Source: Liolophura sinensis
Taxonomy: Eukaryota; Mollusca; Polyplacophora; Chitonida; Chitonidae
Reading direction: 5' to 3'
Length of the DNA: 64,000 nt
NCBI RefSeq assembly: GCF_032854445.1
Contig: NC_088295.1
Span: 76,534,028 to 76,598,027, forward strand
Of the stretch, positions 26,812 to 63,853 are shown piece after piece; position 1 is the stretch's first letter, and each line of letters starts with the position of its first letter. Below the pieces are notes generated by a model that ran no database searches, had not been told where the DNA came from, and saw nothing but the letters and a program-made list of their open reading frames with translations. A program made the position numbers and the translations under genes.

Positions 26812-26908
26812 ATGAACAGGACAGACATGGCTGGCGTCTCCTACTTCACGGGGTCTGCTTGGGCTGTGTTGGTCTTACTCACGGCACATATGGTTGTCGC
26901 CCAGCAAG
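26812..26908 (+). CDS. Exon 1: signal peptide
   Basis: The ATG opens 32 codons with a polar start and a hydrophobic core, SAWAVLVLLTAHMVVAQ, typical of a cleaved signal peptide. It ends at the donor CAAG|GTAAGA in phase 1, matching the next exon. Just upstream, CTCTCTCTCAG at about 26,790-26,800 resembles a 3' splice site, so this exon may begin about 11 bases before the ATG with a further 5' untranslated exon upstream; TAATAAAT at about 26,762 could instead be a TATA-like box. An in-frame second Met lies at codon 6. Confidence 0.8.
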
Positions 26909-29900
26909 GTAAGATGTTTATACAATATCTTCAGTTTGTCAAGATCTCACTTTGTCTGTTTCCCACCGTGTCAGACCAGGTAGTTCAGATCAAGAAACGT
27001 TTATATCACACTGGTAGAATTGCCCCTTAATAACCTTAATACGCAAGTATAATTAGCACTGCTTTGCGACTACCTATTTTATCATGTTACTGGAGGGACA
27101 CACAACATACAAACTTGGGCTCATCAGTCGTATGGGTTAATTCAAGGTCTTTGCTTTAGAAATTAAGTGGAGATAAACCATCATTGTATCCAACGTACTA
27201 TAGCTATAATTACAAATGATTCAAACAGTGGAAATAAGTAAACTCCAATTATCAAAGTCAAATTCTAAGACACTTGCAAACCGACTGTGCGGATAGTATA
27301 TTTAGAGTGGAAACACATGCACACCTGGTTTCTTCTGCGTTATTACTGATTGGGTGGTGTTATTTCTGTCATAAAATACGGAGTATCGATCGTTCTATTT
27401 AAACCTCTCCTTGTTTCTGAATCGGACAGATCTGACATTTTCCGCAGTGACAGAGAGAGTGTATATATGAATTGAACGATCTGTCAAGTTTAAATGTTGA
27501 CGTTTTTGAATTACAGATGAGATACTTTACTTAAAGTATCTTCTCACCAAGAGATTTATTTCACAGCCACTCAAATTGCATGGACCCACCCAATAGTATG
27601 ACAACACTACTCCCAGACAGCTGTGTATTAGCAATAAAGGGAGAGCACATGGTTTCAGTCCAGCATTTGCTTTAAATTTCGAAATCAAAAGATCCCATCC
27701 TTTGCTAATGGCATGTTCGCATAGAAATAAAACATAGCTTTCTCTGTTCAAATCATATATATGAAGCAGACGGGAATTGTCTACTTTTTTAAGACAAAGA
27801 GCTTAATGCTGGCTTAAAAAATCAAGTTTTTTATGTTTCGACTGACTGCGGCGAACGCTGTAGCAACATACTCAAGACGATGCAACTGTAGATATCACAT
27901 GTGTGCGGAACATTGGTTATGCAAAATGGAATACTGCACAGAAGGAAAACATACTGTGGAAGACCACCTCTTTTATCGCACTTTTGTTTATTACTCAGTA
28001 TCATAAAGGAACTTGATGGATGAATTTGTCATTTGAGTAACATCGGCTTTGTCTTGCTGATAAAATACATAGATTAAGAGCAGTTTCCTTCAGCCATTTT
28101 ACTTGCACATCTCTGCACAATTTCTAATACTCATTTCTAATACTCACCGAGATACTCACGTATAGGACTACAGACCCTAACACTTAAGTGACCGTCACAA
28201 ATAACATGGACCCCCAACATCTTGGTGGCTTCACACAATGTCATTTCTCCTCAAAATCCCTTCTCTGCATGAAAGCTGAAATATGGCTCTCTTGGGGTGT
28301 TGCGGAAAACCGGTTCTACTTCCCCCATGGTTAGCGTACCATCGTGGCACAGTGACAGAGGAGCCTCTCGCCAATGCGGTCGCTCTGAGTTCAAGTCCAA
28401 ACTCATGCTGCCCTTCCTTCTGGCTGTACGTGGGAAGATCTGCCAGCAGCCTGCGGATGGTCGTGGGTTTCTCCCCGCTCTCTGCCCTGTTTTTCCCATC
28501 ATAATGCGGGCCGCCGTCGTATAAGTGAACTGTTCTTCAGTACGCCCTATAACACCAATCAAATAAATAAAAAAATATACAAACAAGTTGGAGCGTGTGC
28601 ATTCTTTACAGTGAAATCTGCAATGACCCGAGCACAGTTGTATTCAAGGGAAGGCGAACGTTGTAAGGTGAAATCTGATCTGTACAGAGAAAAACGCTGA
28701 TCGTAAACCTAACGAAAGCAACTGAACAAATTAAGGATGTGGGGAACTGGGGGTGGGGCGGCCAGGTGTGGGGACGTGGTTGGAAAGGGGAGAACATTGA
28801 TACAAAATGGACAGCTACATCTATAGTCATTCCCAATGATCATGACAAAGTATTGCCTGAACATAACACATGTGAAAATCTGTGGATTTTTACCACCCGC
28901 GGTCACATTTCAGTGGATGTGGACACTATTCCCGCCCACTCTGTATCAGATTTATATTTGTTTTCGGTCTTCTTTTGTTTTTTATGCGGGATTCAATAAC
29001 TGCAATTTTTGACCACATGTTCATACCCCCCACACTGCCTGTTTTAACGACTTCAATTTTCGGGCACACACCCATACTTCGCACATTCGGGCGTTTTCAT
29101 ACAAAAACAAGCAATAGATGACTTAGTATAAGACGAAAGAAGGCCCGCAATGTGGGTGTGGCGTTTTACGCAGTCATGCAAATGGCATAGGTATAGCGGA
29201 CAGAAAACTAATTACCCTATAGTTGAAGCAGCGTTACCTACAGCACATCATTAAATTCGAGCCTATTGTTCACATTTTATAATTTGGGTGGCAAATGTTA
29301 TACAGAGATGAAAACATATTAGAGTCAAATCGACTGGTGTTCTGTGACGTTATCTTCCGAAATAAACTGACGGCCAAAAGAAACTTTACAAAGAGCTCAA
29401 ATCAATTTATTTTGCCAAAGGAAAAACAGGATGACTAAAGTTTAATATATTGAAAAAACCAATGACTTCAGATACTGAAAGTCTTGAGTAAGAACGGACA
29501 AAGTAACCCTCAAATCATTTTACAAGTGAACAAATAGAGCAGGGATAGGAAAATAGCCATTCCATCTTGGTTAGCAATGGGCAGAGTATACAAAAAGTTG
29601 ATTATTTTTAAAATCAGTCAATATCAACAACAATCAATATCGCGTGTGGCCACCCCTTGCTTCAATGCATAAAAAAACTCTCCAACGCATAGAAATAGTC
29701 TGATGAGATGACATAGGATTCGTTGTCATTCATCTTGGAGAGCGAATCGCAGTTCTTGTCGGTTGGCTGCGAGGTGTAGCCATTGTCTTACTCGACGACC
29801 CATGTTCTTGGCCTGTCCGATGTCTGCCCTGTCTGTCTGTAACGTTGCATCAAGTTTGACACAGTTACAAGAGAGCACCCGAAAGTCCTTGCAATGTGGG

Positions 29901-47900: not shown

Positions 47901-50900
47901 AATAATTTATGTACATGTACATTATTCTTTCCATTTTGCTCTGATTTTCCTATTGTTTTCACACAATGCCTTTCCTACCAACTTATTACTCTTAAATTTT
48001 TCTCACCTTAACGTGCTTTATGATGTCTTAAATACCTGCATGCATTTTACCACCAAAGCTATATGTATGATCCAGTGGAATCCTGGTAGTACTGAGGATT
48101 GCACAAACACAGTGATCGAACTATAAATTAACCTATACGACTTACATTATCGGAGTTACCTTGGTCAAGGAGGCCAAGCTAGACATACTCCTCAATTAGT
48201 TTGATACATTCAAGGAACCAATCCAGACGAGCTCCTCATACTTAATGGTGATGGCAGCAAATAAAAGAAAGCCAAGCGATTTTTTTAAAGAATGTCGATA
48301 ATAGCACTAAACCAAGCAAGACCAGCAGCTTCCGAGTTAGTCTTCATCGATTCAAAGAAAACTGGCACAACTAATAAAAAACTGTGATTAAATAATTTTT
48401 TTATACATTTTTAAAACCTTTTCTAAAACAGATAAAACGTTTGAAACCACCTATAAGCCAGATTTACTCTGTCCAAAGTTCTACCATGCTTAAAGAGGCT
48501 ATACCACATATTTGTGGCAAAAACACTATATTCGCTGATAAAATCAGTGTTTCTCTATTTATTACGAATAAGTTAAATGATTGCCCTTCAGATATTTTCT
48601 GATTTAAAATAACTGTAGAACACCTATTTACAGTATTAAAGTTATTCTAAATTTTGAAAGTTATGAAGTAAAAGATATCACACATTTTACAAACTTGATC
48701 GATTTTGAAATATAATACGTGAACAAACAAGGTCAAAAATTTGTGAGATTAAATTATTTGGGCTAGTACAAAACACATGTAATAGGAAACGTTTTGTCAG
48801 ATCGTTTGCTAAGATTCACCGGTATATCTATTTAAGGCTTATTGAGATAAAATCAGATTGAGAAACCACCAATCCTCCTTATGGATAATGGGTCCACAAA
48901 AAATACCGAAAACTTGTTACAGAACAATGACTAAAATTAACACCATTTCCATGAAATGTCCATGGCAATCTACATTGTACTCCATCAACATCAAATGAAC
49001 AGATCATTTGCCACGGACACCTTTTTCCATTCACGATGAGGTCATACGTCGGCGGTAAACCTACCACTGACTCTTTGCCCTAAACGATCTTGGCTTGGGA
49101 GTGGTTGTGACAGCAAACGCATTCATCCTGGAACTGCAGAAACTCATAAACATAAATAGCGATGACATCGTCACATACATCTCTGGATTTTCATGCTGTG
49201 ACTCATCTTCACTATTGCTAGTCACCTGGTCGCTTCCACTGTCGTCATTAGCTTGTCTTCGATTAGGTTCACGACGTAAGATTTGCAAGCTGAAATGATT
49301 TTCTTCAGTCAAAGCTGTAGCGTTCAACAGTTTGCTCGCTCGTATATCATTGTTACTGCTTTTTGTCTCGTAGAGGAGCTTTTTGATATATTTAACTACA
49401 ACGACGTAATTAAGATGATCTAATGTCTGCACTATAAGCGTAGAGAACCTCAACTTTTTGTGTTGCCTTCTAAGAATTCACGCATAGTTGAGCCAAAGTT
49501 GCTAACTATTTTATTTCACATCACGTACAACTGTACCATTTCAGGTATAGTTTTATAAACCATGATTTCTGAAGTGCTGACCACCCTCGTATTGGTGAAA
49601 TATTGTTGAGTATGACGTAAACCACCGATCAGATAAATAGATAAATATGATCTCTGGCTGTGCGTGTTAGCAGGGATGCAAGTGTCTATTTCCGTGCATT
49701 AATCCATGCATCATTTTAAAATTATGATAAAATGAAATGCCCAGCGAACCCCTGTCTTGATTCCTGGTTTAGATGGGATCTGTTTTTTTCTTCATGACAC
49801 TAAGACAAGTATGGAATGTCAGCTAGCTTTAAAACAAGGGGAGATTATAACCATATTATGAGACAAGAAATCTGGCACGACTTAGTACATGTACTTGTCT
49901 CTTTTCTTGGTTGCAGGCGCGTTGATATCCCAGCTACACTTCTTATTGGTGAATGAAACAACGGATGGAATCAAAATTCATGGAACACTTCCCAGATGAA
50001 TGCTGTGTCTGTAACGTTTTCATCGGCTGATGGTTTTTTGTTTGAATACCCCATTGTACGACAGGATACATCAATAAATATGCTGTTAGCTGCATTTAAT
50101 TCCAAAGCAGGGATACACGTATACTTTGGTCGCCAGGAGTTTGCTCCATACCTTAATGTTAATTCGGTCTTCCTTCGGAATAACACTAACACTGGCATAC
50201 GAGTGGAGAATAATGGCAAGCTTGAGGTAAACAGTTGTGAAGTGTACGGTTCAAAAACCGCAATCAGTCTTGAGTCGAACTTAGCAGGTTCCTTGATTTT
50301 CCGTGCTTGTGATTTCCACGATAATTCCGAGCGAGTGATATCATCCCAACGACACACATCTTCTGGGGGAAACTTTTCCTTTGTTCTGGCTGACAGTTCA
50401 ATTCATGATCACAGTTATTACATTTATTGGTCGTGGAACTACAGACCTTTGATTGATATTTATCCCAATGACCGACTTGAGCAGGCTACGTGGACATTTA
50501 AAAATAATAAGTTTTTCAATATGTCCATTTCTGGTACAATTTTAGACATAGATGCTCGATATGTTCGCTCTGAACTCAACGTTTATATCACTGGGAACCA
50601 ATTCATGGACATCGCTCGCGGAAGAGCTGTTGAAGTGAGAACAAGTATTAGGTCATCCATTAACATTGCCAATAATCTGTTTGAGAACATCACAGATCCT
50701 CGCGCCAATGCTTTGGTCGAAATTTATCAACACGTAATTAACGCAACAGTACGTGTTGAAAACAACACGTTTCAGGCCAATGGAGTTTCTAGCATGGTCT
50801 ATCTTTCAGGGGAATCGGGGACCTTTCCCTATACATACATAATATCAAACACGTTCCTCAACAACTCCGTTAGTAACACAATTCTCAGTGCTATTTCAGG

Positions 50901-51668
50901 CTTTCAAGCCCGGAACAACATATTCACGAATCCAAGAGCATCATGTGAAATTAAAGCACCAGACTTTAATGACTTTGCTCCGATTGATGCCTTAAATTGC
51001 TACTGGGGGTTTGGTGACTTAGACAAAATAGTACAGCGGGTGTGCTCGTTTGAGAAGGACATGCGTTTATCCCGGGTAAACTTCATTCCCTACCTGCTGT
51101 CAGCTGATTTGGGGAACAAGGTGGATATTACGGACGGGACCTTCCATTTGGACACTCTGATTGGCGGAGTGGTAACGGGCACTATTACCCTTGCTAAAGG
51201 ACCTGAACCAGTCGTCATATCTAGATCTGTTTATGTTGAGTGAGTTCACATCTTAATTTTCTTTCCCTTGCCTCTAAAAGTATTTCAAGCATACGTACAC
51301 AAAGCGTTAATTGGTAATATATACCCCCGCTTATATCTAGCAATCAGTTTTAGTGTAAACGCTTTTTTTGTAATATTAACCTTTGAAATTTGAAAAGAAA
51401 TTAACATCTAAAACTTTCCTGTTGCTTGAAATATCAAATTATAAGGAGCGCCTGACTTTATTTTATACGTATATGCAGGCCAGATGGGTCGCCCAAAAAC
51501 GCAAATATATACACAGTTATTAAAAGCAAGGTTCACGGTTTTTATGCTAAAAAGTTGTGTATAATTTTTGCTTGTGTCTCAAACAGGGAAAATGCGGTGC
51601 TGGTCATTGAAGCAGGATCAACTGTGGAATTCGAGGAAGACTGCGGTATCTTTGTCAAAGGTATGCAT

Positions 51669-51706
<38 letters not shown>

Positions 51707-54700
51707 TTCATATATATATAACATATATATGTTTTCAGGGTTGTTCGAATCGACTGAAGAATTAATCGTCACCAATATAGCATTAAGTCTACTATATATG
51801 GCGAATAGGAGACACTATGTCTTACAGATTTAGATTTCAACACTTTTTGCATAAACGCTCATACCAAAATTAAACAGTTCCATATCACTTCAACTCACGT
51901 AAATGTCTAGCACTTATCCTAAGCTACAAATTAAACTGGCTCATCTGGGAAACAATCCAATGGCATGACATTGTATTGGTTAATAACAATTACGTGGTTA
52001 GTCAGATTTACAATTTTGATAGCAGTTTTATACTTTTTATAACCTGAAACAACCTGAAACAGAAACTAGGCTAAAAGCTAAAACCACAAATCTCCGGGTT
52101 GATCCATTGAAATATTAGGCTGATTCCGTCTCTAAATACATCAAGGAATCATTTTATTCCCTTTGACCACGAACCTTTAAGTAGAAACAAATTTAATTTC
52201 ACAGACGGGCATTTGTGCGACCACTCTCTAGACATTCATAGATCTACTTGAAAGCTACTTTCTGTTATCGTATAAGATTCACCCGTTCAAGATGGATGCT
52301 GTTTGGCCAGCAAACGTGCCATATACTGAGTTTTATGTTAAGGCCTTATCATACGATATGTAATTTTTACCATAAATGTTTTCTGGTATTTGTTACCTGT
52401 ATAATTTCCAATTTACTTTTTTTCAGGGAAGGTTGTCATTGGATCTGACAAGGCAAGTCGTACAACCCTTCAGCCTCATAACTCCGATTTTTGGGAAGGC
52501 ATTGTGTTTGGTTCTGGCAGTTTGTCAAAATCCCGGTCTGTGACGTCTGTATCAGAGATGAGGAACACGCACATACTAAATCCTAGAACTGGAGTTAGGT
52601 TCCTTACTTCTCAAGTCAGCCTGTTTAATAACGTGATTTCGGGGTCTGGAAATGCTGGAATAACTCTTGATGTGCAAAATACTGTCTTTGACTTTAATGG
52701 AACAGCAGTGATAGATAGTGGTAGTTATGGACTTTACGGTGACCCTATAACAGATATCCGGATAAGAAACGTTACTATTATAGGAAGCAACTACGATGGA
52801 GTGGCCTTAAGGTCTGCAGGTGGTCATGTGGAGCTAGAGTATGTCACACTTGATGGGAATAGCGGTGCTGGAGTGGAGGTTACATACTCGAATAACGATC
52901 TGGAGAATTTCTTCACTATGTCTCATTCACAGGTTTTGAACAATCAAGGCGTAGCGGTCCAAGGTGAATTTTTCATGTTTTACCGGGATATCGGAATAAA
53001 CATTAACAATAATAACTTTACAAATAACACCAGAGGGGGTTTGCTTGTTACATTGTCCGAATCTTATGGCTGGAGAAGCTGGAATCCAAGACTGTGCACG
53101 TGTAATATTACGGACAACGTTTTTACCAACAGTGGAACAAGTTCTGTTCGCGTTCAGTCTTACGCAGTGATAGATATAAACAATAATCAATTCCTTAACA
53201 GTCATAGCTTAGATGCATGCATATTATCAATCGAGTCCTCTGCATGGAGAAACGAACAACCCTCGAAGGTTATCAGCTTAACCACTAACCGGTTTGAGAT
53301 GGGAAGTGGAGAGTGTGCCGTCGATCTGTCATCCCAAGACGAAGGAAACCTGGAAGGCTTGTTCGTTTACAATCAACTGACTTCTTTTGACGCGACGGAA
53401 GCAACTATTATTGTTGACTCTCTCCATTTTAATGTGACCGATAACATTTTAGACAACCCTGAATCTGTGTATGAGATCAAGGTGACCAAAGCAGGCACTG
53501 GTGTAGTGCACGCAGAGCGGAATTGGTGGGGAAGTACCAACCTACTGTCGGCTAAAGCTCGTGTCTTCGATCAAACTCGGGACCCATCTCTTTTGGCACT
53601 GGAAATTCAACCAATCCGCCAGGAACTGACATTTGACTGTAGCCTGGTTAACAACTGCAGTGGTCAGGGAGAGTGCGTTAGGCCGAACGGATGTCGTTGT
53701 TACCGGGGATGGGCGGGAACAAGATGCACCGAGTATGACTGTTCTGGAGTTAGCCAGTGTTCTGGTCGCGGGGCGTGTATCGGACCTAACGTCTGTGAAT
53801 GTAACCTAGGTTATACTGGTTCACGCTGTGAGCTAGCCACGTGTTCCAACGTAAATGACTGCTCGGGCAAAGGGTTTTGCATCGCTCCTGATACCTGTCA
53901 GTGTTTCACGAAATATTCAGGCTCAACATGTTCGGAGTGTGGACCGGAAAGATGGGGAGAAGACTGTCTGCCATGTCCATTCTGCGTTAGGCCTCAGGGA
54001 ACGTGCAACACGCAGAACGGTAAAATACTCATGTGTTATTCTCAGAAAAAAAGCTTTGAAACAAACAAGGCATCCAATCTTGAAATAATATTAATCGATT
54101 AACATTTTTTGCTTTTTCCCCTTTAATTTATTTTGGTCCTCACTAGCAGATTAATTAAGGCACTGTAACTGGCAAGGCACGACGAAGGATGCTGTGTATT
54201 TGAACTTAGGTCTAGTTTGCTGGGCTGAGCGTTTATATATGAAGGATTGTCAGATACATTGCATGATTCTGTTCTGCTTCAAATACTGGTAACAAAGCAA
54301 AAAAAGTGCATACTCCTACCTCTACTTGTATTGTTTACAACGAAATTCTTGTGAAAAAATTCTTGTGATTTTATTTCAATTTTATCATACCCGTAAGGAA
54401 CGTGTCTGTGTGCCTCCAACTGGGCCGGAGATATTTGCGATCGATGTGCCAAAACATTCTACGGATCTGACTGTGAGCCTTTAGTGACTGTTCTGAACGT
54501 GTTTCCTGACGGTGGACCGGACACTGGTGGTACGGAGGTGCATGTGAGAGGACACAACTTTCCAGAGACAACCAACAACACGTTTTATTGCCGCTTCGGT
54601 TCCAAAGTCGTGGAAGGCATTCGCCTCTCCAGAGAGCATGTGGTTTGTGTGTCACCGCAGTTGCCCGAGGCGACGTACTTTGTGGAAATCTCTGTGGATG

Positions 54701-57700
54701 GCGTCATGGATTTCACAGACAATAAGGTAAACATTTCCACAGTACCTTTGGAGTACAATTCATCTAATGCGCCAGATTTCCCTTGAAGTTCTTTCTGTTG
54801 CCAGTTCTGCTACGACTTTAAGGCAGGAGTGTAGTCTAGTGCAAACCGAACTATGCCCCTCTCCTTCTACTCATAAACCGGCTCATTGCGGAATGTAACT
54901 CTGTATCGAGCAACACGAAGTGTTGGGAGAGTTATAGGGAATAACTGTTTCTGATGTGTCGGATCGATGGCAAGCCACATTTACAGCACCTTCACACGCG
55001 CATTAAATCTTCGCTAGCTTAAACTGATGGCAACCAAGTGGTCCCCGTAATCAATAAACCTGTTCTGGGTCTCTCTCAAAAACGATCCGACACATTAGAA
55101 GAAGTTATTCCGCGTTTCTCGTTCAACATTTCGTGTTGCTCGATGAAGAATTTCAACATTTCCTTTTACATTTCGCAACTACCCATAAACTTAACCAACG
55201 TCTCGAAACAGAAGAAGTGCTCAGTACGGTGGAAAACATACAATCAAACAAATTCATCAAATTCAGCTATGCAGAAGAAAAGAATTTTGTAATCTCAGTT
55301 CAGTGTTGGATGTCATTTTTTTACAACCACTGATCAGTTTTTTTTATCTATATATGGAAATGTCATAATACGGTATAATAGAACAATACAAAAATAAACA
55401 TAACTCCCCATATTTGAGATCCTTGCTGACTAACAAAATGAATAATTAAATACTAAAAGTATCTCCACAAAACTCAGACAGTATATAGATAGTTTTAACA
55501 CAAAAAACTCACAACAGCATCAATTTGAATATATTATAGTAACAATTTCTGTAAAGGCTATATAGTACTTTGAAAGACAGCTTTTGTGTCTGATGTTTAA
55601 TAGGGTCATGGGTAAGTATGTAATTGACACCACACGATTTTAACAATTTTTCAGGTACCTTTCAATGTCTATGCGCAATGTCCTCCAAATGCATGTGGGA
55701 AGAACTTTAGTCCAGCGCACGGTTACTGTGCCTTCGGGGGATGTGTGTGTGAGTTACCTTGGTCTGGACAAGATTGTCTCACTGAGATTAGAGTTCCGCG
55801 AATAGCTGATGTCGACTCTCCTATCGCCATCAGCGAGGGGGACAGCTTTTCCCTGAAACTAAACCTAACACAGGTAGGAATGCTTAAGGGTTTAGCACCG
55901 CTGTAACTGTGTTTGTTGTATAAACAGATACCATGAACGTAATCGCTTACCGGTCTACTTTTAAGTGTGACCCTGGCCTCCCGAAAATACCTCAAAGACT
56001 ATAAAAAGGTCCTGACAATAACTAGAATTAAATTAAAAGAAAAATCGAAAGAATTTGTTTGGTAATGTGTTCTACCAACGACAACAGCGACAGATGACAT
56101 GTGCAGGGGTGAGAATACTGATGATCTTCTGGTTTATGGAGTACTCCTCCATACTCCTCCATAAACCAGGTTTTATGGAGCACATTTGTAAATTACGCGA
56201 AGGACTTTTTTGTGGTCATTCATAAATGTTCTGTCACAACACAAGCAATTGATGCATATATAGTACAAACAGTACCAAGTAGATTTTAGCGCATTTTGCT
56301 TATCTATTGATATAGAAGATGAATCGGGTTGTATACATTAGTACCATGTTGTTTTGTTTCGCCAGTTTACATAAGTTCTCTGTTTCCATCGATAGCGATC
56401 AGACGACGAGCACTCGCACTGCCAGAACAACGCAGAGCAGTGATAATGTATGCGGATTACCTAACACGGCTTCTGGTTTAATTAGCTCGGTAAATGCAAG
56501 GATTTCAGTGTCATAGGGTTTCTTGGTAAAATTTTCAAATGTGTGTGAGTGTGTGCTTAGTGGGCAAGCTTATATTCTTCTTTGCAATTATTATTTTTTA
56601 ATGGTATTTAACTTTCCTCTCATTCTAAGGGAACATCGCCAGTAGCGTGGTTTATCCAACGTCAGCCTCAGGGTATGGTTCTGGATGTGCGCTCAGCTAC
56701 GGTCACGTGGGACAGAACGATAGGATCCGGGACACCTTATCGTGTGGTGATTGGTGCCACAAACATCGTGGGGACGGACACAAAAACCTTAGAAATTCGA
56801 GTTCCCTTGTCATATAACGTCACTATAGAGACCACGACACCGTCTGGAACCCTGTCCACCCCGGAACCTGTTACAATCCGTGGTCATGTGAACTTCTGGA
56901 ATACCGACGGTTCACGGGTTGCTCTGGTGGATTTGCTGTATGCACCTGTTTCTTTTTATTTTCTATTATAATGCTCATTCACTACTTTTTTTACGCCTCT
57001 GAAATCTGATTTGTAGTCTCCGGTTATGATTTATACGTTATAGCCGAACATATCCTGTAATTTTTGTCGGTAAAATTAAAATAAAAGTTGCACAAATCAG
57101 GCGTATAAAGAGCTCTGGTTTTACCTCAGAATATAAGGCATTATCAAATACGAAGGCTATCAAGTAATTCATTCGTGATTAATGGATGTTCCGAAATTTG
57201 ATCTGGATTTGATTTAAGAACACCGATACCAATTTCACCCAGCTGCTGTGTGCATGTCTACGTACACTGATATTCCAAGTTAGGCAAACAAATAATGTCC
57301 TTATTTTTTTTAGGATTCGTCAAAATGACAAAACTAGACCACTTACCACCTTTTCTGATCCCGGGAGAAACGGATATTTTGAAGCTATATTTTATCACCA
57401 GTCCCAGGACAGTGGAGAATTTTTTGTGGTAAGATATATCATGTTTACCCCTTCATGTACTCCAACATTCCAGTGGTTAGTTTGAAGGTAACACCAACTT
57501 CTCTCGCCAACATCTGTGTATTTCTACCAATGAACCACCAAGAATCGAAAGCCATCTTAATTGGAATAAATGTTATAACTATCAAACATTTAGTAGCGGC
57601 GTAGTTAATGTCGTGCTTCGTCATCTAATCACAGTGGAAGCAATGTACATATACAGTAAATGTTGCTTGTGTGGTATCTTTAAAAGTGTTATATGTATTG

Positions 57701-60700: not shown

Positions 60701-63122
60701 TACGATTCGTGTTGAGGATGAGTTTACTTACTTTGATGAAAGTCATCCTCTTGTTAGCAATGCCACAGTTACTCTCGTCAACGGACGCCGAAAATTTCGG
60801 ACCTCTTTAATGACAACAAGAGAGAAAGGCAAGTCATTCTGATGTACACTGTAGTACTAACATCCTCTTTGGGTTAAACAGTCTCCATCTTCTCCATGAT
60901 AGTCCATGACCCTTCAGTTCAGCGTGTAACATTATCCCTTATTACGTTAGCCTAGCTTGAGTATGGCTTTAAACAACAGACTGACAAATATAAAATAATG
61001 AAATGTGTTAGCTTAGTAAATTGTCCTCGTATTTTTGATTTTATTTCATAGATTATTATTGAATTTCCTAAACAAGAATTATTCACTTTGAGAATAGTTC
61101 CACAAATGGAGGAAACCGGAGCGCCTATGGTAATCCATCGCCATTTTGTCAGTTCCTGAGAAACATTCCGACTTCAGCCAGGCTAGGATTGCACTCGAGA
61201 CTGATACACTGGTAGTAATGGAAGCTATGAATATCTTGCCCAGGGATCTGTTTCATGAAGCACAGTTAGCTAAGAAAGCCTTTCACTGCCATGACAACGT
61301 ATGCTGTGGAGATGTGAAGTTGGCTTAAGTAAGGGCCACGCAACACTACGTACGCTTCATTAAACTAAGGGTAGACTGGGTTGAACAACATTTTCATGAA
61401 GATGACGATTTCTCGAATGGCATATTATTTTATATTATTTCCTTTTGGTAGGTTGGGTGACCTTCGAAAATTTACAGGAGGATAAGTACGACTTACGTGT
61501 TCAGGCACCTGGTCATGGCTCGTACGTTGCCGTCATTGTTGCTGACAGCACATCTCCAAATATGAGCGTTTTTCTGCAGCGAACCGCTGTCACTTACACA
61601 TTTAGTGTAACGCCAACCACGTTTGAAGACAAATACGTAATTACCCTTGAGACTACGTTTGAGACTCAGGTAATCCATGCATATGCTTTAGTCGTAATTA
61701 AACCTGTTTACATGATAAATGCAATTTACGCCACGCTGATGTCCTGTTTACTTATGACGACAGTTAATATATTAAATGTTGTAAATGTATATTTTTGTTT
61801 ATATAGAGAAGATGATTTTCCTGGAGCCTGGGTACAGTTTGTGTAAACTACACAACTAAACACATTTTAATTAGTCTTGCTCGTTTATGGATTCTACTAA
61901 AACCGACTTACAAACGCAGACTGTAGATTCATTCAGACAAATGAATCTGTTTGCACTGAAGACACAGAAGAGATATTGTGTATTCAATGTACGCTATTCT
62001 ACGCGTAAACGGATCTTTTCGCTATTTGCCTAACTTCAGATGCATTTATTCAGCCCTTTTGCTTACCATGCTTTAACAAGGATGTTGAGTGCTACAGTTA
62101 AAGTTTTATCGTTTATATGAGGAATCAAAATCAAAAGTTGACCGCTTTGCTTCACCAGTTTTATGTATGTCCTTCCACATACCAAGTGTAATCTTGTCGC
62201 TTCTTTAGCTGATTTTACTTTTCCATGTGCTTCATCTCCATTTTGGATCATTTTGTCTTATCAAAAGGTACCAATGCCAGTCGTTACTGTGGAACCCGCG
62301 CAGGTTAATACCATTCCGTATGAAGAAGGTCGCAAAAACATCATGGAATTCCGCCTTACAAATCATGGGCTAATCCGTGCTGATAATGTGCGTTTCGCTC
62401 TCCCCAGCCATCCTCGACTCCTATTTTTTATGGTAAGAATTATGCTTTTTCATTTTCTTTTCGTTAAATTTGCATTTACTACCCGTGGTGGGACGAGGTG
62501 CTCCTAACTCATATAAATAATATATTTCTCCATTTAACATTAAGGAGAAATTTTTAATATGTATAATATTGCAAATGGTTTGTCCAATCATATTTTGATT
62601 TTCCTGTATGTATTAATCATTAGTACTCTCTTAACCGTCATTACGTCATTATCTGTACACAGACTATTGATGAGATTGGTCATTTAGAAGCGAATAGCAG
62701 CATCATCGTTCCTGTTCGAGTGGAGAGAAAGGTAACGGAAACTACGCCATCTCCCACTACAGTCTCTGTGAAAACCATTTCACCACGGACTCTAAATCCC
62801 GGTGCTACAACAGGCCGGCCATCACCAACCAATGCGCCGGCAACGAGAGCACCATCCACTCGGACTCCTACGGACCGGCCCAACCCACCATCTTCCGGTG
62901 GTTCCGATGGAGGGTCGTCAAGCAGCAGTGGATCGTCAGGTTATTGTGGGATAATCATAGTGTACGATTATGTGTGCGGGGTCCGTATCAGCCGGCAGAT
63001 TACGGTATCTCTTCCTAGGGTGTATCCAGGCAGACCACCTATACCGTGTGTGACTTCCACAGCTGTAGCCACTCTGCCGTCCATCAGAACAGGAACAGTC
63101 GGTGTAGGAGGAGGAGGAGGAG
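26812..63122 (+). CDS. Large multidomain extracellular protein: discoidin, beta-helix, SRCR, EGF, IPT (Bark beetle-like); 3' end off window
   Basis: Twenty-four coding exons, about 3,274 codons so far, were traced by eye through splice sites with matching phases. Predicted domain order: signal peptide (1-30), F5/8 type C (about 34-176), beta-helix modules (195-1251), group A SRCR (about 1255-1360), beta-helix modules (1371-2190), three EGF-like repeats and a laminin-EGF-like segment (about 2215-2400), IPT/TIG (about 2400-2480), EGF-like (2485-2520), beta-sandwich modules (2530-3140), Thr/Ser/Pro-rich linker and a Cys-containing segment (3140-3274). Many N-x-S/T sites fit an extracellular protein. 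Beta-helix plus SRCR is the combination known from Bark/Anakonda, a tricellular-junction transmembrane protein of insects; a role in adhesion or epithelial junctions is inference. No transmembrane segment or stop codon is seen before the window ends. One exon contains an apparent frameshift. Confidence 0.88.
27715..27790. repeat. Single arm related to the foldback MITE at 31.1 kb
   Basis: The sequence TAGAAATAAAACATAGCTTT through CAGACGGGAATTGTCTACTT follows the arm of the 31.1 kb element with scattered differences. No matching inverted arm was seen beside it. Confidence 0.45.
28270..28572 (-). mobile_element. SINE family S2, reverse orientation, near full length
   Basis: Reverse S2 body with GAGGAGCCTCTCGCCAATGC, CCTGCGGATGGTCGTGGGTT and GGCCGCCGTCGTATAAGTGA, ending ACACCAATCAAATAAATAAA. 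It lies in intron 1 of the large gene. Confidence 0.75.
29360..30246 (-). mobile_element. Tc1/mariner element, internally deleted
   Basis: Near-identical 30-base inverted terminal repeats (29,360-29,389 and 30,217-30,246, one mismatch, core AAACTGACGGCC) bound 887 bp. Between them the minus strand encodes MPRLTPEQREGALGMVSMGA, then IARTFGCSLVTVSNLMQRYR and SDRPR, the N-terminal helix-turn-helix of a Tc1-like transposase (29,788-29,974). A stop follows at once and the catalytic DDE half is missing, so this is a non-autonomous deletion derivative. Confidence 0.78.
29788..29974 (-). pseudogene. Tc1-like transposase N-terminal fragment
   Basis: The first about 60 residues of a Tc1-like transposase are intact from a Met, with the PAIRED-type helix-turn-helix ending in a G-R-P-R-like SDRPR. 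The reading frame then stops. A few downstream residues in another frame (NRQELRFALQDE) may be transposase remnants. The DDE/D catalytic residues are absent. Confidence 0.7.
31065..31243. mobile_element. Foldback MITE-like element
   Basis: About 70-base arms (31,066-31,137 and 31,172-31,242) are inverted copies of each other, beginning AGAAATAAAACGTAGTTTGC and ending at a short loop. The total is about 180 bp, with no coding capacity. A related single arm is at 27,715-27,790. It lies in intron 1 of the large gene. Confidence 0.65.
32530..32680. repeat. Dispersed repeat family R2, copy 4: palindromic core
   Basis: The left arm (TCCGTTGCGCTGTTGATATA and on to GATCTAATTCAACACGATGA) and the right arm (TCATGTTGAATTAGATCAAC through GGGTATATGAACAGTTGTAA to AGCGCAACGGAG) are inverted copies around about 30 bases. 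The S1 SINE starts immediately after. Confidence 0.6.
32683..33008 (+). mobile_element. tRNA-derived SINE (family S1), 5' end replaced
   Basis: It matches the 22.2 kb copy from GAGCGTCCGCTTCGG to the CACTCACTCACT tail. The A box half of the tRNA-like head is missing because the copy abuts an R2 palindrome at about 32,680. Confidence 0.8.
33040..33220 (-). repeat. Dispersed repeat family R2, second part of copy 4
   Basis: CCAAAGCAACTTTTAACACA, AAAAAGTATATAAAGTACGA and GAAATCAGTATTCAAAT match copy 2. The S1 SINE separates it from the palindromic core at 32.5-32.7 kb, so the SINE probably inserted into an R2 element. Confidence 0.6.
33588..33745 (+). mobile_element. SINE family S2, partial
   Basis: TTTATTTGATTGGTGTTTTA, CTTATACGACGGCGCCCAGC and CCATCCACAGGTTGGTGGCA. 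The copy ends about 80 bases before exon 2 of the large gene. Confidence 0.75.
33828..33926 (+). CDS. Exon 2: start of F5/8 type C (discoidin) domain
   Basis: Acceptor TTTGCAG, donor AATG|GTGAGT, phase 1 to 1. It encodes NCSSALGMESGNITRSQIT followed by ARPNG, the classic opening of a discoidin domain: first cysteine, then LGMESG, I and SQIT. Discoidin domains bind carbohydrate, phospholipid or collagen. The usual alanine-serine pair after SQIT is Cys-Trp here. The exon lies about 7 kb after the signal-peptide exon, across an intron rich in transposon remains. Confidence 0.88.
34117..34376 (+). CDS. Exon 3: central F5/8 type C domain
   Basis: Acceptor TGATTTTCAG, donor ATACTG|GTGAGT; enters in phase 1 and leaves in phase 0. 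The 87 residues begin EYGWTNYQSS and contain VDLLRVKQVTRVSL and FRIYYSVDGRVWQTY, the usual middle of a discoidin domain (hydrophobic strand, then Y-S-x-DG-x-W). The segment ending NEVTSTVDRYLNPPIL matches the position where family members have a V-x-N-x-L/F-x-P-P strand. Confidence 0.9.
35055..35435. mobile_element. Two S2 SINEs in head-to-head inverted arrangement
   Basis: The left copy (about 35,055-35,215) reads TTTATTTGATTGGTGTTTTA and onward. The right copy (about 35,250-35,435) is its reverse complement and ends ACACCAATCAAATAAATAAT. They are separated by about 35 bases, giving a foldback of about 380 bp inside intron 3. Confidence 0.75.
35998..36123 (+). CDS. Exon 4: end of F5/8 type C domain
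   Basis: Acceptor GATGTTCGCAG, donor ATCGAG|GTGAGG, phase 0 to 0, 42 codons. ARYIALNPVEWN followed by LKYELYGCE is the standard C-terminal strand of a discoidin domain (R-Y/F-I/V-R-x-x-P-x-x-W ... R-x-E-L-x-G-C). Its final cysteine, about residue 176, should pair with the cysteine at about residue 35. The remaining residues link to the first beta-helix module. Confidence 0.9.
36155..36275 (+). mobile_element. SINE family S2, partial
   Basis: TTATTTATTTATTTGATTTT, then TTCACTTATACGACGGCGGC and GGCCATCCGCAGGTT, in intron 4 of the large gene. Confidence 0.7.
36702..36840 (+). CDS. Exon 5: first beta-helix cap module
   Basis: Acceptor CCATTTGTAG, donor CTACG|GTAATT, phase 0 to 1. It encodes an initial strand (NQVFVTSLSPYIIDRAIHIR), then ASLTIQAGVRVLFTN and KLVVYG. 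This I-x-I/V-x-P-x-A-x-L-x-I-x-A-G-V-x-V-x-F pattern marks the start of a right-handed parallel beta-helix in Bark-type proteins and recurs four times in this gene, each time with a phase 1 intron after a V-x-G. Confidence 0.85.
36980..37093 (+). CDS. Exon 6: beta-helix linker
   Basis: Acceptor TTGTTTTAG, donor TCCG|GTAAGC, phase 1 to 1, 38 codons. It begins GRLRSDGLEGLRVVFSHNS and continues to FRWDEVEVKKGSG, a version of the G-x-L-x-x-x-G ... v-x-F ... W-x-x-I-x-x-x-x-x-G segment that sits between the cap and the main coil region of each beta-helix block. Equivalent exons are 39,406-39,498 and 43,573-43,668. Confidence 0.82.
37251..38537 (+). CDS. Exon 7: beta-helix block 1
   Basis: Acceptor AATTTCACAG, donor CGGG|GTAAGT, phase 1 to 1, 429 codons with no internal stop. 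The translation has repeated 20-25 residue coils with N-N/N-x-G and I/V-x-I/V-x-x-N steps, such as SQISDNRGSGISV and NVTFSYNFI, typical of PbH1 beta-helix repeats. Near the end NAAYNYWGSSNG matches the N-Y-W-G-S turn that closes such blocks in Bark-like proteins. The last 60 residues restart the cap motif (IEPGVELRF ... GILVRG). Several N-x-S/T sites are present. Confidence 0.9.
38700..38972 (+). mobile_element. SINE family S2, near full length
   Basis: TATTTATTTATTTGATTAAT, CTTATACGACGGCGGTCGGC, GAGAGGAAGTCAGCATGAGC and CCAACCGAGCCACGGAGACC. It lies in intron 7 of the large gene. Confidence 0.75.
39406..39498 (+). CDS. Exon 8: beta-helix linker 2
   Basis: Acceptor CTGTCATAG, donor ACAG|GTACTT, phase 1 to 1, 31 codons: GHLSIAGEDDAMIKFTSAGE followed by KKWSGIRLDRTG. 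It is the second copy of the linker module (G-x-L-x-I-x-G ... I-x-F-x-S ... W-x-G-I-x-x). A copy of the dispersed repeat R1 begins within about 60 bases downstream. Confidence 0.87.
39560..39790 (-). repeat. Dispersed repeat family R1, copy 4 (reverse)
   Basis: CTAATTCTGCTGAAACCATG, AGTTAGAATAAAACCCTGAC and CACACTGTCGTCGCTGCTCT are the reverse complement of R1 blocks. It is followed directly by the G-rich tract at 39.8 kb. Confidence 0.6.
39799..39876. repeat. G-rich simple repeat
   Basis: TGTG passes into (GGT)n and then runs of five to eight G separated by single T. Four or more G-runs are close enough to form G-quadruplex DNA. It lies in intron 8 of the large gene, next to an R1 copy. Confidence 0.9.
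40683..42125 (+). CDS. Exon 9: beta-helix block 2
   Basis: Acceptor CTTACCTTTTCAG, donor CGAAG|GTATCA, phase 1 to 1, 481 open codons. The protein has the same coil pattern as block 1, closes with ATLNYWGSVDS and then starts another cap (INVLPGDVLQVEAGVEINFL ... GVTVEG). No catalytic motif of a polysaccharide-degrading beta-helix enzyme was recognised, so a binding or structural role is more likely. Confidence 0.9.
42126..43572 (+). other. Intron 10-side spacer (between exons 9 and 10)
   Basis: About 1.4 kb of AT-rich sequence without recognisable exon, repeat copy or structured element. Confidence 0.55.
43573..43668 (+). CDS. Exon 10: beta-helix linker 3
   Basis: Acceptor CTTACCACAG, donor ACTG|GTAAGT, phase 1 to 1, 32 codons: GALIVEGNIDNPVNFLPQS, then KKWRGIEFLHTG. 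It is the third linker copy and is the last piece before the SRCR domain, which therefore interrupts the beta-helix series. The KKW-x-GI core is shared with the linker at 39,406-39,498. Confidence 0.87.
44568..44721 (+). CDS. Exon 11: SRCR domain, first half
   Basis: Acceptor ACGCATTGCAG, donor TATGA|GTAAGT, phase 1 to 2. It encodes IRLVAGKLPNEGRVEVRYNG, then EFGTICDDNFGQEDAMVVCR and MLGY, the textbook N-terminal half of a scavenger receptor cysteine-rich domain (R-L-V-x-G ... GRVEV ... WGTICDD ... A-x-VVCRxLGY). The usual Trp before GTICDD is Phe here. A domain encoded by two exons is the group A arrangement. Confidence 0.93.
44977..45179 (+). CDS. Exon 12: SRCR domain, second half
   Basis: Acceptor TATCTTGTTAG, donor CCAG|GTGAGG, phase 2 to 1. 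It contains AAYGRGSGTIWMDDINC, then NVTSCIFNGWGNHNCGHWQD and VGVIC. With the two cysteines of the previous exon this gives six cysteines, as in group A SRCR domains. The D-D-I/V-x-C and W-x-x-H-x-C-x-H-x-x-D-x-G-V-x-C signatures are intact. SRCR domains mediate protein-protein binding. The tail KETKPG and its donor are echoed by decayed copies in the next intron. Confidence 0.93.
45290..45500 (+). repeat. Degenerate tandem copies of the SRCR exon 3' end
   Basis: The end of exon 12 and its donor (AGACTCAAGGAAACCAAGCC then AGGTGAGGTTTTCAG) is echoed at least three times here, for example GACTCAAGAAAATCTACCCA then GGTAAGCTTCTCAG, and GATAGACTCAAGAAAGCTAG then GGGGAGTTTCTCAG. Another copy of TAATCTGTCATG is included. 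Related fragments are at about 47,530-47,562 and 48,172-48,240. Confidence 0.65.
49570..49652 (-). repeat. S2-type SINE end fragment
   Basis: GGTGAAATATTGTTGAGTAT and GACGTAAACCACCGATCAGA with ATAAATAGATAAAT match the terminal part of S2 in reverse orientation. A similar stub (ACACCAATCAAAGAAACAAA) is at about 40,570-40,645. Confidence 0.5.
49917..51239 (+). CDS. Exon 13: beta-helix block 3, with apparent frameshift near 49,994
   Basis: Acceptor TTGGTTGCAG, donor TTGA|GTGAGT; phase 1 in, phase 2 out. From the acceptor, in the expected frame, it reads ALISQLHFLLVNE ... DGIKIHGTLPR and then TGA at 49,997. The next frame, from 49,996, opens at once and runs 414 codons through clear beta-helix coils, a NCYWGFGDL closing turn and the next cap (GGVVTGTITLA ... 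SRSVYVE). Both halves look like the same fold, so the break behaves like one missing base. A 47-base intron (49,949-49,995) would also restore frame, but it would delete good coil sequence and be far shorter than the other introns. Confidence 0.82.
51587..51660 (+). CDS. Exon 14: beta-helix cap 4
   Basis: Acceptor GTGTCTCAAACAG, donor CAAAG|GTATGC, phase 2 to 1, only 74 bases. It encodes ENAVLVIEAGSTVEFEED and CGIFVKG, the fourth cap motif, and joins in frame to VYVE from the previous exon. A (TA)n microsatellite starts about 10 bases after the donor. No equivalent intron splits the other three caps at this point. Confidence 0.85.
51671..51730. repeat. (TA)n microsatellite beside a splice donor
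   Basis: A 33-base TA run begins 10 bases after the donor of exon 14 (GTATGC), with two shorter TA runs following. Confidence 0.92.
52427..54019 (+). CDS. Exon 15: linker, beta-helix block 4, and EGF-like repeats
   Basis: Acceptor CTTTTTTTCAG, donor GAACG|GTAAAA, phase 1 to 1, 531 open codons. It starts with the linker copy (GKVVIGSDKASRT ... DFWEGIVFGSG), here fused to the coils without the intron found in the other copies. The coil block ends with AERNWWGSTNLLS. Then come three EGF-like units with regular cysteines, for example CSGRGACIGPNVCECNLGY and CSGKGFCIAPDTCQC, and a CGPERWGEDCLPC segment typical of a laminin-type EGF boundary. Confidence 0.92.
54398..54726 (+). CDS. Exon 16: end of laminin-EGF-like segment and IPT/TIG domain
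   Basis: Acceptor ATACCCGTAAG, donor AATAAG|GTAAAC, phase 1 to 0. It begins GTCLCASNWAGDICDRCAK and completes the EGF-like unit. TVLNVFPDGGPDTGGTEVHV, then GHNFPETTNNTFYCRFGSK and HVVCVSPQLPE, is a classic IPT/TIG fold (P-x-x-G-P-x-x-G-G-T-x-V-x-V-x-G-x-x-F ... C-x-F-G ... V-x-C-x-S-P). IPT domains in extracellular proteins such as plexins serve as structural or binding modules. Confidence 0.92.
55655..55873 (+). CDS. Exon 17: end of IPT domain, EGF-like segment, start of next beta-sandwich
   Basis: Acceptor CAATTTTTCAG, donor ACACAG|GTAGGA, phase 0 to 0, 73 codons without a stop. VPFNVYAQCPP closes the IPT domain. NACGKNFSPAHGYCAFGGCV, then CELPWSGQDC, has EGF-like cysteine spacing. IRVPRIADVDSPIAISEGDS begins the next beta-sandwich (an I-x-x-x-E-G-x-x-x-x-x-x-L strand, as in Ig-like or cadherin-like folds). 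It was found by reading across splice sites because it has no internal start codon. Confidence 0.87.
56131..56167. repeat. Short perfect hairpin in intron 17
   Basis: GGTTTATGGAG and CTCCATAAACC form 11-base arms around a 15-base loop (TACTCCTCCATACTC). A third GGTTTTATGGAG copy follows at once. Confidence 0.6.
56630..56937 (+). CDS. Exon 18: Ig/PKD-like beta-sandwich
   Basis: Acceptor CATTCTAAG, donor TTGCT|GTATGC, phase 0 to 2. VAWFIQRQPQGMVLDVRSAT, then VTWDRTIGSGTPYRVVIGAT and NIVGTDTKTLEIRV, is the Y-x-V-x-I-x-A-x-N-x-x-G pattern of putative Ig (He_PIG-like) domains of extracellular proteins. A second domain starts with YNVTIETTTP and TIRGHVNF. The domain names are inferred from pattern only. 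Confidence 0.82.
57314..57428 (+). CDS. Exon 19: beta-sandwich continuation
   Basis: Acceptor TTATTTTTTTTAG, donor TTTGTG|GTAAGA, phase 2 to 0. Joined to exon 18 it reads VALVDLLIRQNDKTRPLTT, then FSDPGRNGYFEAIFYHQS and GEFFV. The T-x-F-S-D-x-x-G-x-x-x-x-F/Y form resembles a carboxypeptidase-regulatory-like strand pattern. It has no internal start codon and was found from splice sites and phase. Confidence 0.8.
58430..58700 (-). repeat. Dispersed repeat family R1, copy 5 (reverse)
   Basis: GTTAGAATAAAACCCTGACT, TTCACCGGTTACGTGTGCCC and ATCACACTGTCGTCGCTATT are reverse-complement R1 blocks. The copy ends about 50 bases before exon 20 of the large gene. Confidence 0.6.
58749..58931 (+). CDS. 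Exon 20: beta-sandwich linker
   Basis: Acceptor TTTATTTCTGACAG, donor TCAGAG|GTAAAT, phase 0 to 0, 61 open codons. It reads SGNHPSDPVFRPQASWKVQG, with VTFPSVAELINTGLENVRNI at the end. The P-x-x-x-x-L-x-N-x-G-L-x-x-V/L pattern resembles the strand before NEW/CARDB-type beta-sandwiches in large surface proteins. A reverse-oriented R1 repeat ends about 50 bases upstream of the acceptor. Confidence 0.78.
59185..59450 (-). repeat. Dispersed repeat family R1, copy 6 (reverse, decayed)
   Basis: GACATTGTCGTCGCTGCTCT, TTATTCGCTGAACTCTTGTT and a preceding CACCAGCGCGTGATTATTTG resemble R1 in reverse orientation. Only part of the unit remains. Confidence 0.4.
60105..60828 (+). CDS. Exon 21: CARDB/NEW-like beta-sandwiches, with GC donor
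   Basis: Acceptor TTGTCCATTTCAG, phase 0 in and 1 out, 241 codons. It holds a first sandwich (AGIAFDVILNASGPLRGTIA ... VVFTADVG), then SPGSLRANLLIGSRATYEIE with VTNDGEAEAANVRVDLPSDD, a clear CARDB/NEW-type pattern (G-x-x-x-x-x-E/F-x-V-x-N-x-G-x-x-x-A-x-N-V-x-V-x-L-P). The last part, LTIRVEDEFTYFDESHP, starts another domain. The best donor is AAAG|GCAAGT, a GC-type site, which joins in frame to the next exon. Confidence 0.83.
61452..61669 (+). CDS. Exon 22: carboxypeptidase-regulatory-like module
   Basis: Acceptor CCTTTTGGTAG, donor ACTCAG|GTAATC, phase 1 to 0. GWVTFENLQEDKYDLRVQAP with GHGSYVAVIVAD is the G-x-x-x-F-x-x-L-x-x-x-x-Y-x-L-x-V-x-A-x-G-H/Y pattern of CarboxypepD_reg-like domains. 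It continues NMSVFLQRTAVTYTFSVTPT and FEDKYVITLETTFETQ, a strand set I associate with large bacterial surface proteins. Confidence 0.83.
62268..62432 (+). CDS. Exon 23: beta-sandwich module
   Basis: Acceptor CTTATCAAAAG (weak pyrimidine tract), donor TTTATG|GTAAGA, phase 0 to 0. VPMPVVTVEPAQVNTIPYEE, then MEFRLTNHGLIRADNVRFAL and PSHPRLLFF. The P-x-P-V-V-T-V-x-P ... F-x-x-T-N-H-G-L-I-x-A-x-x-V-x-F pattern is another NEW/CARDB-like sandwich and continues directly from exon 22. Confidence 0.82.
62663..63122 (+). CDS. Exon 24: Thr/Ser/Pro-rich linker and Cys segment; last exon in window
   Basis: Acceptor ATCTGTACACAG, donor GGAG|GTGAGT, phase 0 to 1, 153 open codons. EIGHLEANSSIIVPVRVERK completes the sandwich begun in exon 23. 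About 55 residues rich in Thr, Ser, Pro and Gly follow (TETTPSPTTVSVKT to GGSSSSSGSSG), a likely O-glycosylated spacer. Next come YCGIIIVYDYVCG and more hydrophobic residues, then a glycine run at the donor. The gene clearly continues, since no stop or membrane anchor has been reached, but nothing further is visible before the window ends. Confidence 0.82.
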
Positions 63123-63434
63123 GTGAGTGAGAAAAGTTCATACTGCCTGAGTGTTTTTGATGCAGATTGTTTCAAGCCATTCTCAAAGTGAACTAACCTG
63201 TGAAGGATAATACCCGCACACGCAGCATCCGATTGGTTTCGAATCCGCCAGGAGGCTTGAATCCAACTGTCTCTGGTTCGACTGGGTCCTTAAATCAGGT
63301 TTATTTTGGGGATTGTGCTTTCCTCATCACAGTCGTCAAATTGAGAAAAAATCGACTGAATACGAAGCAAACTATATGATTTAGAGTTACACAACGGCTG
63401 CATATCAACAAATGCTTTGGTGGATCTATTATGA

Positions 63435-63853
63435 ATAAACATCAGTAACAAATGATAATAAACACCAGTAACAAGTGATAATAAACATCAATAACAAGTG
63501 ATGATAAACATCAGTAACAAGTGATAATAAACACCAGTAACAAGTTATAATTAACGTCAGTAACAAGTGATAATAAACATCAGTAACAAGTGATGATAGA
63601 CATCAGTAACAAGTGATAATAAACATCAGTAACAAGTTATAATTAACGTCAGTAACAAGTGATAATAAACATCAGTAACAAGTGATGATAGACATCAGTA
63701 ACAAGTGATAATAAACATTAGTAACAAGTTATAATTAACGTCAGTAACAAGTGATAATAAACATCAGTAACAAGTTATAATTAACGTCAGTAACAAGTGA
63801 TAATAAACATCAGTAACAAGTGATGATATACATCAGTAACAAGTGATAATAAC
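63435..63853. repeat. Minisatellite, 22-base unit with four-unit higher-order period
   Basis: About 19 tandem copies of a 22-base unit, consensus AACATCAGTAACAAGTGATA plus AT. Variant units TTATAATTAACG and TGATGATAGACA recur in a fixed A-B-C-B order giving an 88-base super-period. It lies just after exon 24, presumably in the next intron. Confidence 0.9.

Follow-up and report, generated by a model that had tools for sequence, protein, structure and literature searches.

Teneurins are type II proteins with an RHS/YD shell. They are animal adhesion receptors, held to derive from a bacterial surface protein and animal domains including EGFs (PMC5851990, PMC13018210), and are presented as the model case in which animals recruited an adhesion receptor from the surface proteins of bacteria (PMC13018210). 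Bark is described as a tricellular septate-junction protein that combines SRCR domains with a parallel beta-helix (PMC8006247). Its crab counterpart, SpBark, is reported to carry a transmembrane region and a C-type lectin domain in addition to three SRCR domains, and to bind microbes most strongly via the lectin domain (PMC6716108). More broadly, a 2026 survey of arthropod HGT-chimeras, in which metazoan and non-metazoan intervals share one frame, reports 104 independent origins and expression of 36 of the 41 chimeras tested (PMC13389597).

Here we describe a gene of this known kind, an animal-foreign fusion, with a module and an animal partner of its own. The window that we analyzed is a 64,000-nucleotide stretch of the 609-Mb genome of Liolophura sinensis (C1:76,534,028-76,598,027). 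Our results probably reflect one gene for a giant secreted protein, probably anchored in the membrane, that arose when a bacterial module was attached to the 3' end of a Bark-like animal gene, before the gene was duplicated to give copies on C1 and C3. Under this model, the animal partner would have contributed the discoidin domain, the beta-helix blocks, and the SRCR, EGF and IPT domains, and a complete bacterial surface-protein module of ~1,520 residues (U-M-C, as we name its parts) would have joined it in frame; the deep duplication giving the C1 and C3 copies would have come later.

Read around a 47-nt stretch in exon 13, the gene model comprises 30 exons spanning 42 kb and encodes 4,163 residues. 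An automatic chain based on codon score and splice-site weights consisted of 54 pieces, many of them spurious, and the final chain was curated by eye from three-frame translations. The part within the window runs from the ATG at 26,827 to the donor at 63,122, and with the 47 nt omitted every junction is in phase and the chain is free of stops. An earlier note on this DNA, which did not list exon coordinates, had proposed 24 exons with these ends and a single frame break, and this we could reproduce. However, the extent that it gave the gene (26812..63122) was too short. In 110 kb of downstream sequence, we found six further exons at window-extended coordinates 64,231-64,549, 64,843-64,998, 65,123-65,414, 65,649-65,720, 66,675-66,870 and 67,164-68,860. 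All are in phase and they reach a stop 4.9 kb beyond the window end; the gene therefore occupies C1:76,560,854-76,602,887. The coordinates of the features inside the window are collected in Table 1.

Table 1. Features of the gene within the window (window coordinates).
Feature	Position	Strand	Evidence
Exon 1: start codon and signal-peptide-like segment (MAGVSYFTGSAWAVLVLLTAHMVVAQQ)	26827..26908	+	Hydrophobic core
Exons 2-4: discoidin / F5_F8_type_C	33828-33926, 34117-34376, 35998-36123	+	Pfam 2.1e-15; whole-genome family search agrees
Exons 5-7: beta-helix block 1, NYWG at aa 597	36702-36840, 36980-37093, 37251-38537	+	Beta_helix 3.8e-22, NosD 5.1e-13
Exons 8-9: beta-helix block 2, NYWG at aa 1110	39406-39498, 40683-42125	+	Similarity to block 1, 1e-12
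Exon 10: short beta-helix cap-like segment	43573..43668	+	Similar segments in paralogs
Exons 11-12: SRCR	44568-44721, 44977-45179	+	Pfam 3.2e-28, profile positions 2-100 of 100
Exon 13: beta-helix block 3, one-base frame break	49917..51239	+	Similarity to block 2, 1e-5
Exons 14-15: beta-helix block 4, then EGF repeats	51587-51660, 52427-54019	+	Beta_helix 8.8e-14, 2e-10; EGF_2 1.4e-12
Exon 16: EGF/laminin-EGF and IPT/TIG	54398..54726	+	Pfam TIG 3.7e-10
Exon 17: EGF-like, Ig-like region begins	55655..55873	+	DUF7949 7e-5, below cut-off
Exons 18-20: Ig-like, then start of bacterial-homologous module	56630-56937, 57314-57428, 58749-58931	+	blastp
Exons 21-23 (GC donor at exon 21): beta-sandwiches of U	60105-60828, 61452-61669, 62268-62432	+	Nostoc 27%, 1.2e-41
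Exon 24: last U strands, T/P/S/G linker; Cys motif and Gly-rich stretch begin M	62663..63122	+	

The frame break at ~49,949-49,995 in exon 13 can be read either as a 47-nt GT-AG intron or as a one-base loss. We prefer the loss because a near-identical tandem copy 57-62 kb downstream reads through; the intron was set aside, as that copy is open across the same stretch. The break is thus a one-base difference peculiar to the window copy, whether real or an assembly error, and lies outside the gene's design.

The predicted protein begins with a signal peptide, followed by a discoidin domain, two beta-helix blocks, an SRCR domain, two more beta-helix blocks, EGFs, an IPT domain, another EGF and an Ig-like segment; then come the ~1,520-residue module, a weak cadherin-like domain, a Ser/Thr-rich stalk and, almost at the very end, a hydrophobic stretch of 17 residues with hardly any tail behind it. 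It contains 56 N-glycosylation sequons and 86 cysteines, and its C-terminus resembles that of GPI-anchored proteins, from which we infer a GPI-type anchor for the C1 protein. The domain order first proposed for the chain agrees with the positions of the Pfam matches above curated cut-offs (F5_F8_type_C, 2e-15; SRCR, 3e-28; EGF_2, 1e-12; TIG, 4e-10; and Beta_helix). The best Beta_helix stretches are aa 412-559 in block 1 (4e-22) and ~1861-2028 in block 4 (9e-14 and 2e-10 for two query segments that overlap), and EGF_2 matches four stretches in the block 4/EGF exons. Block 2 has no Pfam match at E<=1; both it and block 3 are supported by their resemblance to other blocks (1e-12 between blocks 2 and 1, 1e-5 between blocks 3 and 2), and four NYWG-like motifs correspond to the four blocks. 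The SRCR exons have phase-1 introns on either side and thus form a shufflable unit. DUF11 is marginally above its cut-off and CarboxypepD_reg marginally below, and the Cadherin match near the protein end is weak.

These domains raise the question of whether the gene is simply Bark. Like Bark/Anakonda and SpBark, it encodes a large extracellular protein with SRCR and a parallel beta-helix (PMC8006247, PMC6716108), and the description "Bark beetle-like" in the earlier note is apt to the extent that Beta_helix and NosD score above cut-off and occur together with SRCR. As a family label, however, it is not supported: a Pfam search of the entire model found one SRCR domain and no C-type lectin family at E<=1. 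Compared with the published domain descriptions of Bark, rather than with its sequence, the window gene has one SRCR instead of three, an N-terminal discoidin domain, EGF and IPT domains and the ~1,520-residue bacterial module, and no lectin match. Since neither the three SRCRs nor the lectin domain is found, we do not file the gene as Bark. The co-occurrence of beta-helix blocks and SRCR, as in Bark (PMC8006247), would fit a Bark/Anakonda orthologue with a role at tricellular junctions and a C-terminal part that is lineage-specific decoration, but we consider this very unlikely, given not only the SRCR and lectin differences but also a downstream gene on the minus strand (C1:76673602-76693035). 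In this neighbor, which encodes two SRCRs besides discoidin, beta-helix blocks and EGFs, we found no module: the IPT/U exons of the window gene give only a chance-level match (E 0.62), no module exon is predicted and the genome-wide search shows no C-part there. It looks closer to the published Bark layout than the window gene does.

The C-terminal beta-sandwiches had been called "bacterial-looking", and our results show that this was an understatement. The animal protein is collinear with bacterial proteins across ~1,520 residues, and bacterial proteins carry U, M and C in the same order. A single 4,599-residue Nostoc protein matches U (27% identity, 1e-41) and C (39%, 4e-84) in the animal order. 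A translated search with the 520 residues that precede the stalk gave matches in four plasmid records, the best match being a Nostoc plasmid protein (43% over 416 residues, E 2e-82), and the upstream beta-sandwiches (U) match the same four records. The M part is more diverged in sequence, as plain tblastn found it in 2 of 83 bacterial loci, but against a profile of 65 bacterial M stretches it aligned end to end with 98.8% probability over 343 columns. A local alignment gave 98.0% over 175 columns and covered only the second, helical half of M, and the controls (the animal M sequence in reverse and a beta-helix stretch from the animal protein) gave 0-2%. The first half, with its cysteines and Gly-rich stretch, is alike in animal and bacterial proteins by eye. 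AlphaFold predicts a PapD/Ig-like sandwich for exon 21 (pLDDT 85). The similarity is confined to the module: in the same 83 loci, the first 2,300 residues of the animal protein and its EGF/IPT part have zero matches at 1e-4, whereas U is found in 78.

The bacterial similarity starts at aa ~2571, inside exon 18 (blastp to a Methylomonas protein, 5.7e-29). Exon 18 encodes both the preceding Ig-like segment and the start of the bacterial homology, so that the fusion point is intra-exonic and the bacterial-relative interval lies in frame with the animal domains. This bears on the alternative that two adjacent genes were wrongly joined, namely a Bark-like gene that stops after EGF/IPT and, next to it, a bacterial-type gene of its own. 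The model comes from DNA alone, and a promoter or signal exon could have gone unmodeled at 54.7-56.6 kb; even so, we regard this alternative as extremely improbable, as the exon that holds the start of the homology also holds the Ig-like segment, the junction phases fit, and a diverged paralog on C3 has its exons for EGF/IPT, the Ig-like segment and the module arranged likewise. The open chain and the largely matching exons of the paralog likewise bear out the original proposal of a single protein. Bacterial contamination was also considered and rejected. The module has 12 introns in the animal gene, its codon use is host-like (GC3 of 0.455, versus 0.465 for the N-terminal part, with a correlation of 0.94), and the C3 paralog carries it as well. 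This is an animal gene rather than contamination.

To survey relatives of the module, bacterial and archaeal genomes were scanned with an alignment of four C-parts. At least 336 relatives of the C-part (~400 residues) were confirmed, and 80 of these, with 36-47% identity, were kept and combined with three plasmids to give the 83 loci. Among the matches listed, the relatives span seven bacterial phyla: Verrucomicrobiota, Planctomycetota, Cyanobacteriota, Bacteroidota, Pseudomonadota, Armatimonadota and Thermodesulfobacteriota. Of the 80 loci kept from the at least 336 relatives, 72 have U and C together in a single ORF and 3 have them in different frames or ORFs; in the other 5, U was not found in the available stretch. 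Some loci also bring in RHS-type sequence: a plasmid of Eleftheria has an annotated RHS-repeat gene between U and C, and in Methylomonas the U protein runs, by eye, into YD/RHS-type repeats, with C in a later gene. In three bacterial proteins that were scanned, CARDB was present in all, Calx-beta and RTX repeats in one, and a dockerin match just under cut-off in two. The Nostoc protein WP_256872037.1, annotated as Calx-beta domain-containing, shares with the animal protein the U-M-C order and, by eye, a Gly-rich linker and the Cys motifs in M. The bacterial giant surface proteins differ in that CARDB and, in part, Calx-beta, RTX and the near-cut-off dockerin are theirs, and in that the bacterial copies are intronless. 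The C-part itself is poorly covered by existing resources. A Pfam search of 44 C-parts yielded a single match at E<=0.01 (NPCBM_assoc, 0.0069), and no PDB sequence match was found; AlphaFold predicts the bacterial C-part as almost all-beta (pLDDT 92). The animal gene also exposes a bacterial extracellular module whose C-part lacks Pfam coverage and showed no PDB relative in sequence comparison.

In its own genome, the C-part is rare. Full copies are found twice on C1 and once on C3 (25% identity), and four other weak matches (1e-4 to 6e-4) correspond to the cadherin-like end only. The breadth in bacteria, together with the few copies in the animal genome, favors transfer into an animal ancestor, and we infer a bacteria-to-animal direction. 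Homologue searches covered prokaryote, plasmid and own-genome collections, and the animal rows in the C-part trees come from this genome only. In these trees, the animal sequence has a long branch and no supported sister: a quick tree placed it near the base, a careful tree joined it with another long branch, and the branch of the C3 row is very long. The absence of a supported sister or donor clade would also be expected if the module were an old eukaryotic or universal extracellular module, shared by descent through vertical inheritance and many losses, and the 25% identity between the C1 and C3 copies shows that the gene is old. Nevertheless, we think that vertical descent is unlikely, as the relatives span seven bacterial phyla among the matches listed in these collections and the 39-43% identity to Nostoc is, in our judgment, unusually high for such an age in a beta-sandwich region. 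Taken as a whole, the sequence comparisons suggest an old bacteria-to-animal gene transfer.

The C3 paralog (C3:4029707-4079821, minus strand) bears on the timing of the fusion. Its tblastn matches comprise, in order, discoidin, helix blocks, SRCR, EGF, IPT, U, M and C, although the SRCR lies between blocks 3 and 4 instead of between blocks 2 and 3 as in C1. The C3 exons are score-based predictions and were not curated. When the 16 exons that begin with block 4 and end with the stop were compared with these predictions, 9 had the same phase on both sides and 4 on one side, and 3 had no counterpart. The presence of the same parts with largely matching phases implies that the fusion and most of the intron gain appear to be earlier than the C1/C3 duplication. 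The end of the C3 gene differs in encoding a clear transmembrane segment and a short basic cytoplasmic tail. There is a frame break in a C-part exon of C3, and several tandem-repeat arrays in the introns of this gene read as long open frames.

What may be a much more recent event is visible on C1. The whole gene lies inside a tandem repeat whose unit runs from 24,627 to ~81,570, with a second copy extending to ~143.5 kb (window-extended coordinates); long aligned blocks at an offset of 57-62 kb are 97.5-99.2% identical. The repeat may reflect a genuine duplication or a haplotype that was left unmerged. In copy 2, exon 8 is missing together with the final 27 bases of exon 7 and the beginning of exon 9, and an insertion of ~7 kb interrupts exon 9 (affected region, C1:76629479-76636694). 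Over ~3,950 codons, the two copies differ by 24 synonymous and 40 non-synonymous changes, with no nonsense change; the resulting dN/dS of 0.51, based on 64 changes, indicates mild constraint only. Given the losses in copy 2, the one-base break in copy 1 and the break in C3, it may be that not every copy is intact or correctly assembled. The S/T/P/G linker is encoded by a minisatellite with a 105-bp unit (window 62797-62906; copy 2, C1:76658591-76659112), which has one unit in the window copy and several in copy 2, and the length of the linker thus varies in frame. A separate tandem array of ~46-bp units occupies 63431-63850 in the intron after exon 24.

What might such a protein do? Glycans and proteins are the usual ligands of discoidin and SRCR domains, and beta-helix blocks and serial beta-sandwiches form long rods, with a membrane-proximal stalk and tail serving as an anchor. 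Judging from its domains, the likeliest role of the protein would be that of a cell-surface adhesion or recognition fiber that works in a teneurin-like way. The N-terminal discoidin and SRCR domains could bind glycans or proteins on neighboring cells, matrix or microbes, with the beta-helix blocks acting as rigid spacers and the bacterial-type beta-sandwiches as a long ordered stalk near the membrane. The C-terminal hydrophobic tail would provide the anchor; in C1 it looks like a GPI signal, and in C3 it is a transmembrane segment followed by a short cytoplasmic tail. Reasoning from Bark/Anakonda, the earlier note had tentatively put forward an adhesion role at junctions or in the matrix. Another option, by analogy with the lectin domain of the crab protein, is an immune recognition receptor whose discoidin and SRCR domains bind microbial surfaces. 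Tandem duplication is common among immune gene families, and the locus appears to have been tandemly duplicated recently; SpBark, moreover, is reported to bind bacteria and promote phagocytosis (PMC6716108). However, SpBark binds microbes much more strongly through its lectin domain, for which the window gene gave no match, and we consider an immune role doubtful.

Returning to a fiber-like adhesion or recognition protein, the comparison with teneurins is instructive. In both cases, a part that would derive from a bacterial surface protein is joined to animal domains including EGFs. Among the EGF profiles, EGF_Teneurin (41.2 bits; cut-off, 24.3) and EGF_2 (48.2; cut-off, 22.1) score above their cut-offs, whereas EGF_TEN (55.8; cut-off, 65) is below. 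Unlike in teneurins, the bacterial module is a different one, and the Pfam search of the entire model gave no RHS family at E<=1. With another bacterial module and junction-type partner domains, the window gene looks like a case independent of teneurins. We therefore put forward, tentatively and at slightly less than even chances, that this was a second teneurin-like event, in which a bacterial module and a Bark-like ectodomain founded a receptor family whose bacterial part is load-bearing or ligand-binding, and that the C-part defines a domain family common to bacteria and animals that has no Pfam model. If so, the C1 and C3 types would be members of a family of cell-surface receptors. A search of titles and the beginnings of abstracts found no publication that describes this module and animal partner together. 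As in the HGT-chimeras, metazoan and bacterial-homologous intervals share one reading frame, here in the predicted exon chain; a difference from the chimeras of the arthropod survey is the age of the window gene, which has a deep paralog. The fusion is traceable because a related neighbor in which no module was detected and a diverged module-bearing paralog are present in the same genome. If other animals carry the module, its age and donor could be dated and its role tested.

Finally, two minor features were noted along the way. Elsewhere in the genome, 15 discoidin-domain matches are clustered within 55 kb (C11:7828962-7884102). Within the window, an open frame on the minus strand at 29788-30060 resembles what we take to be a remnant of a Tc1/mariner-type helix-turn-helix.
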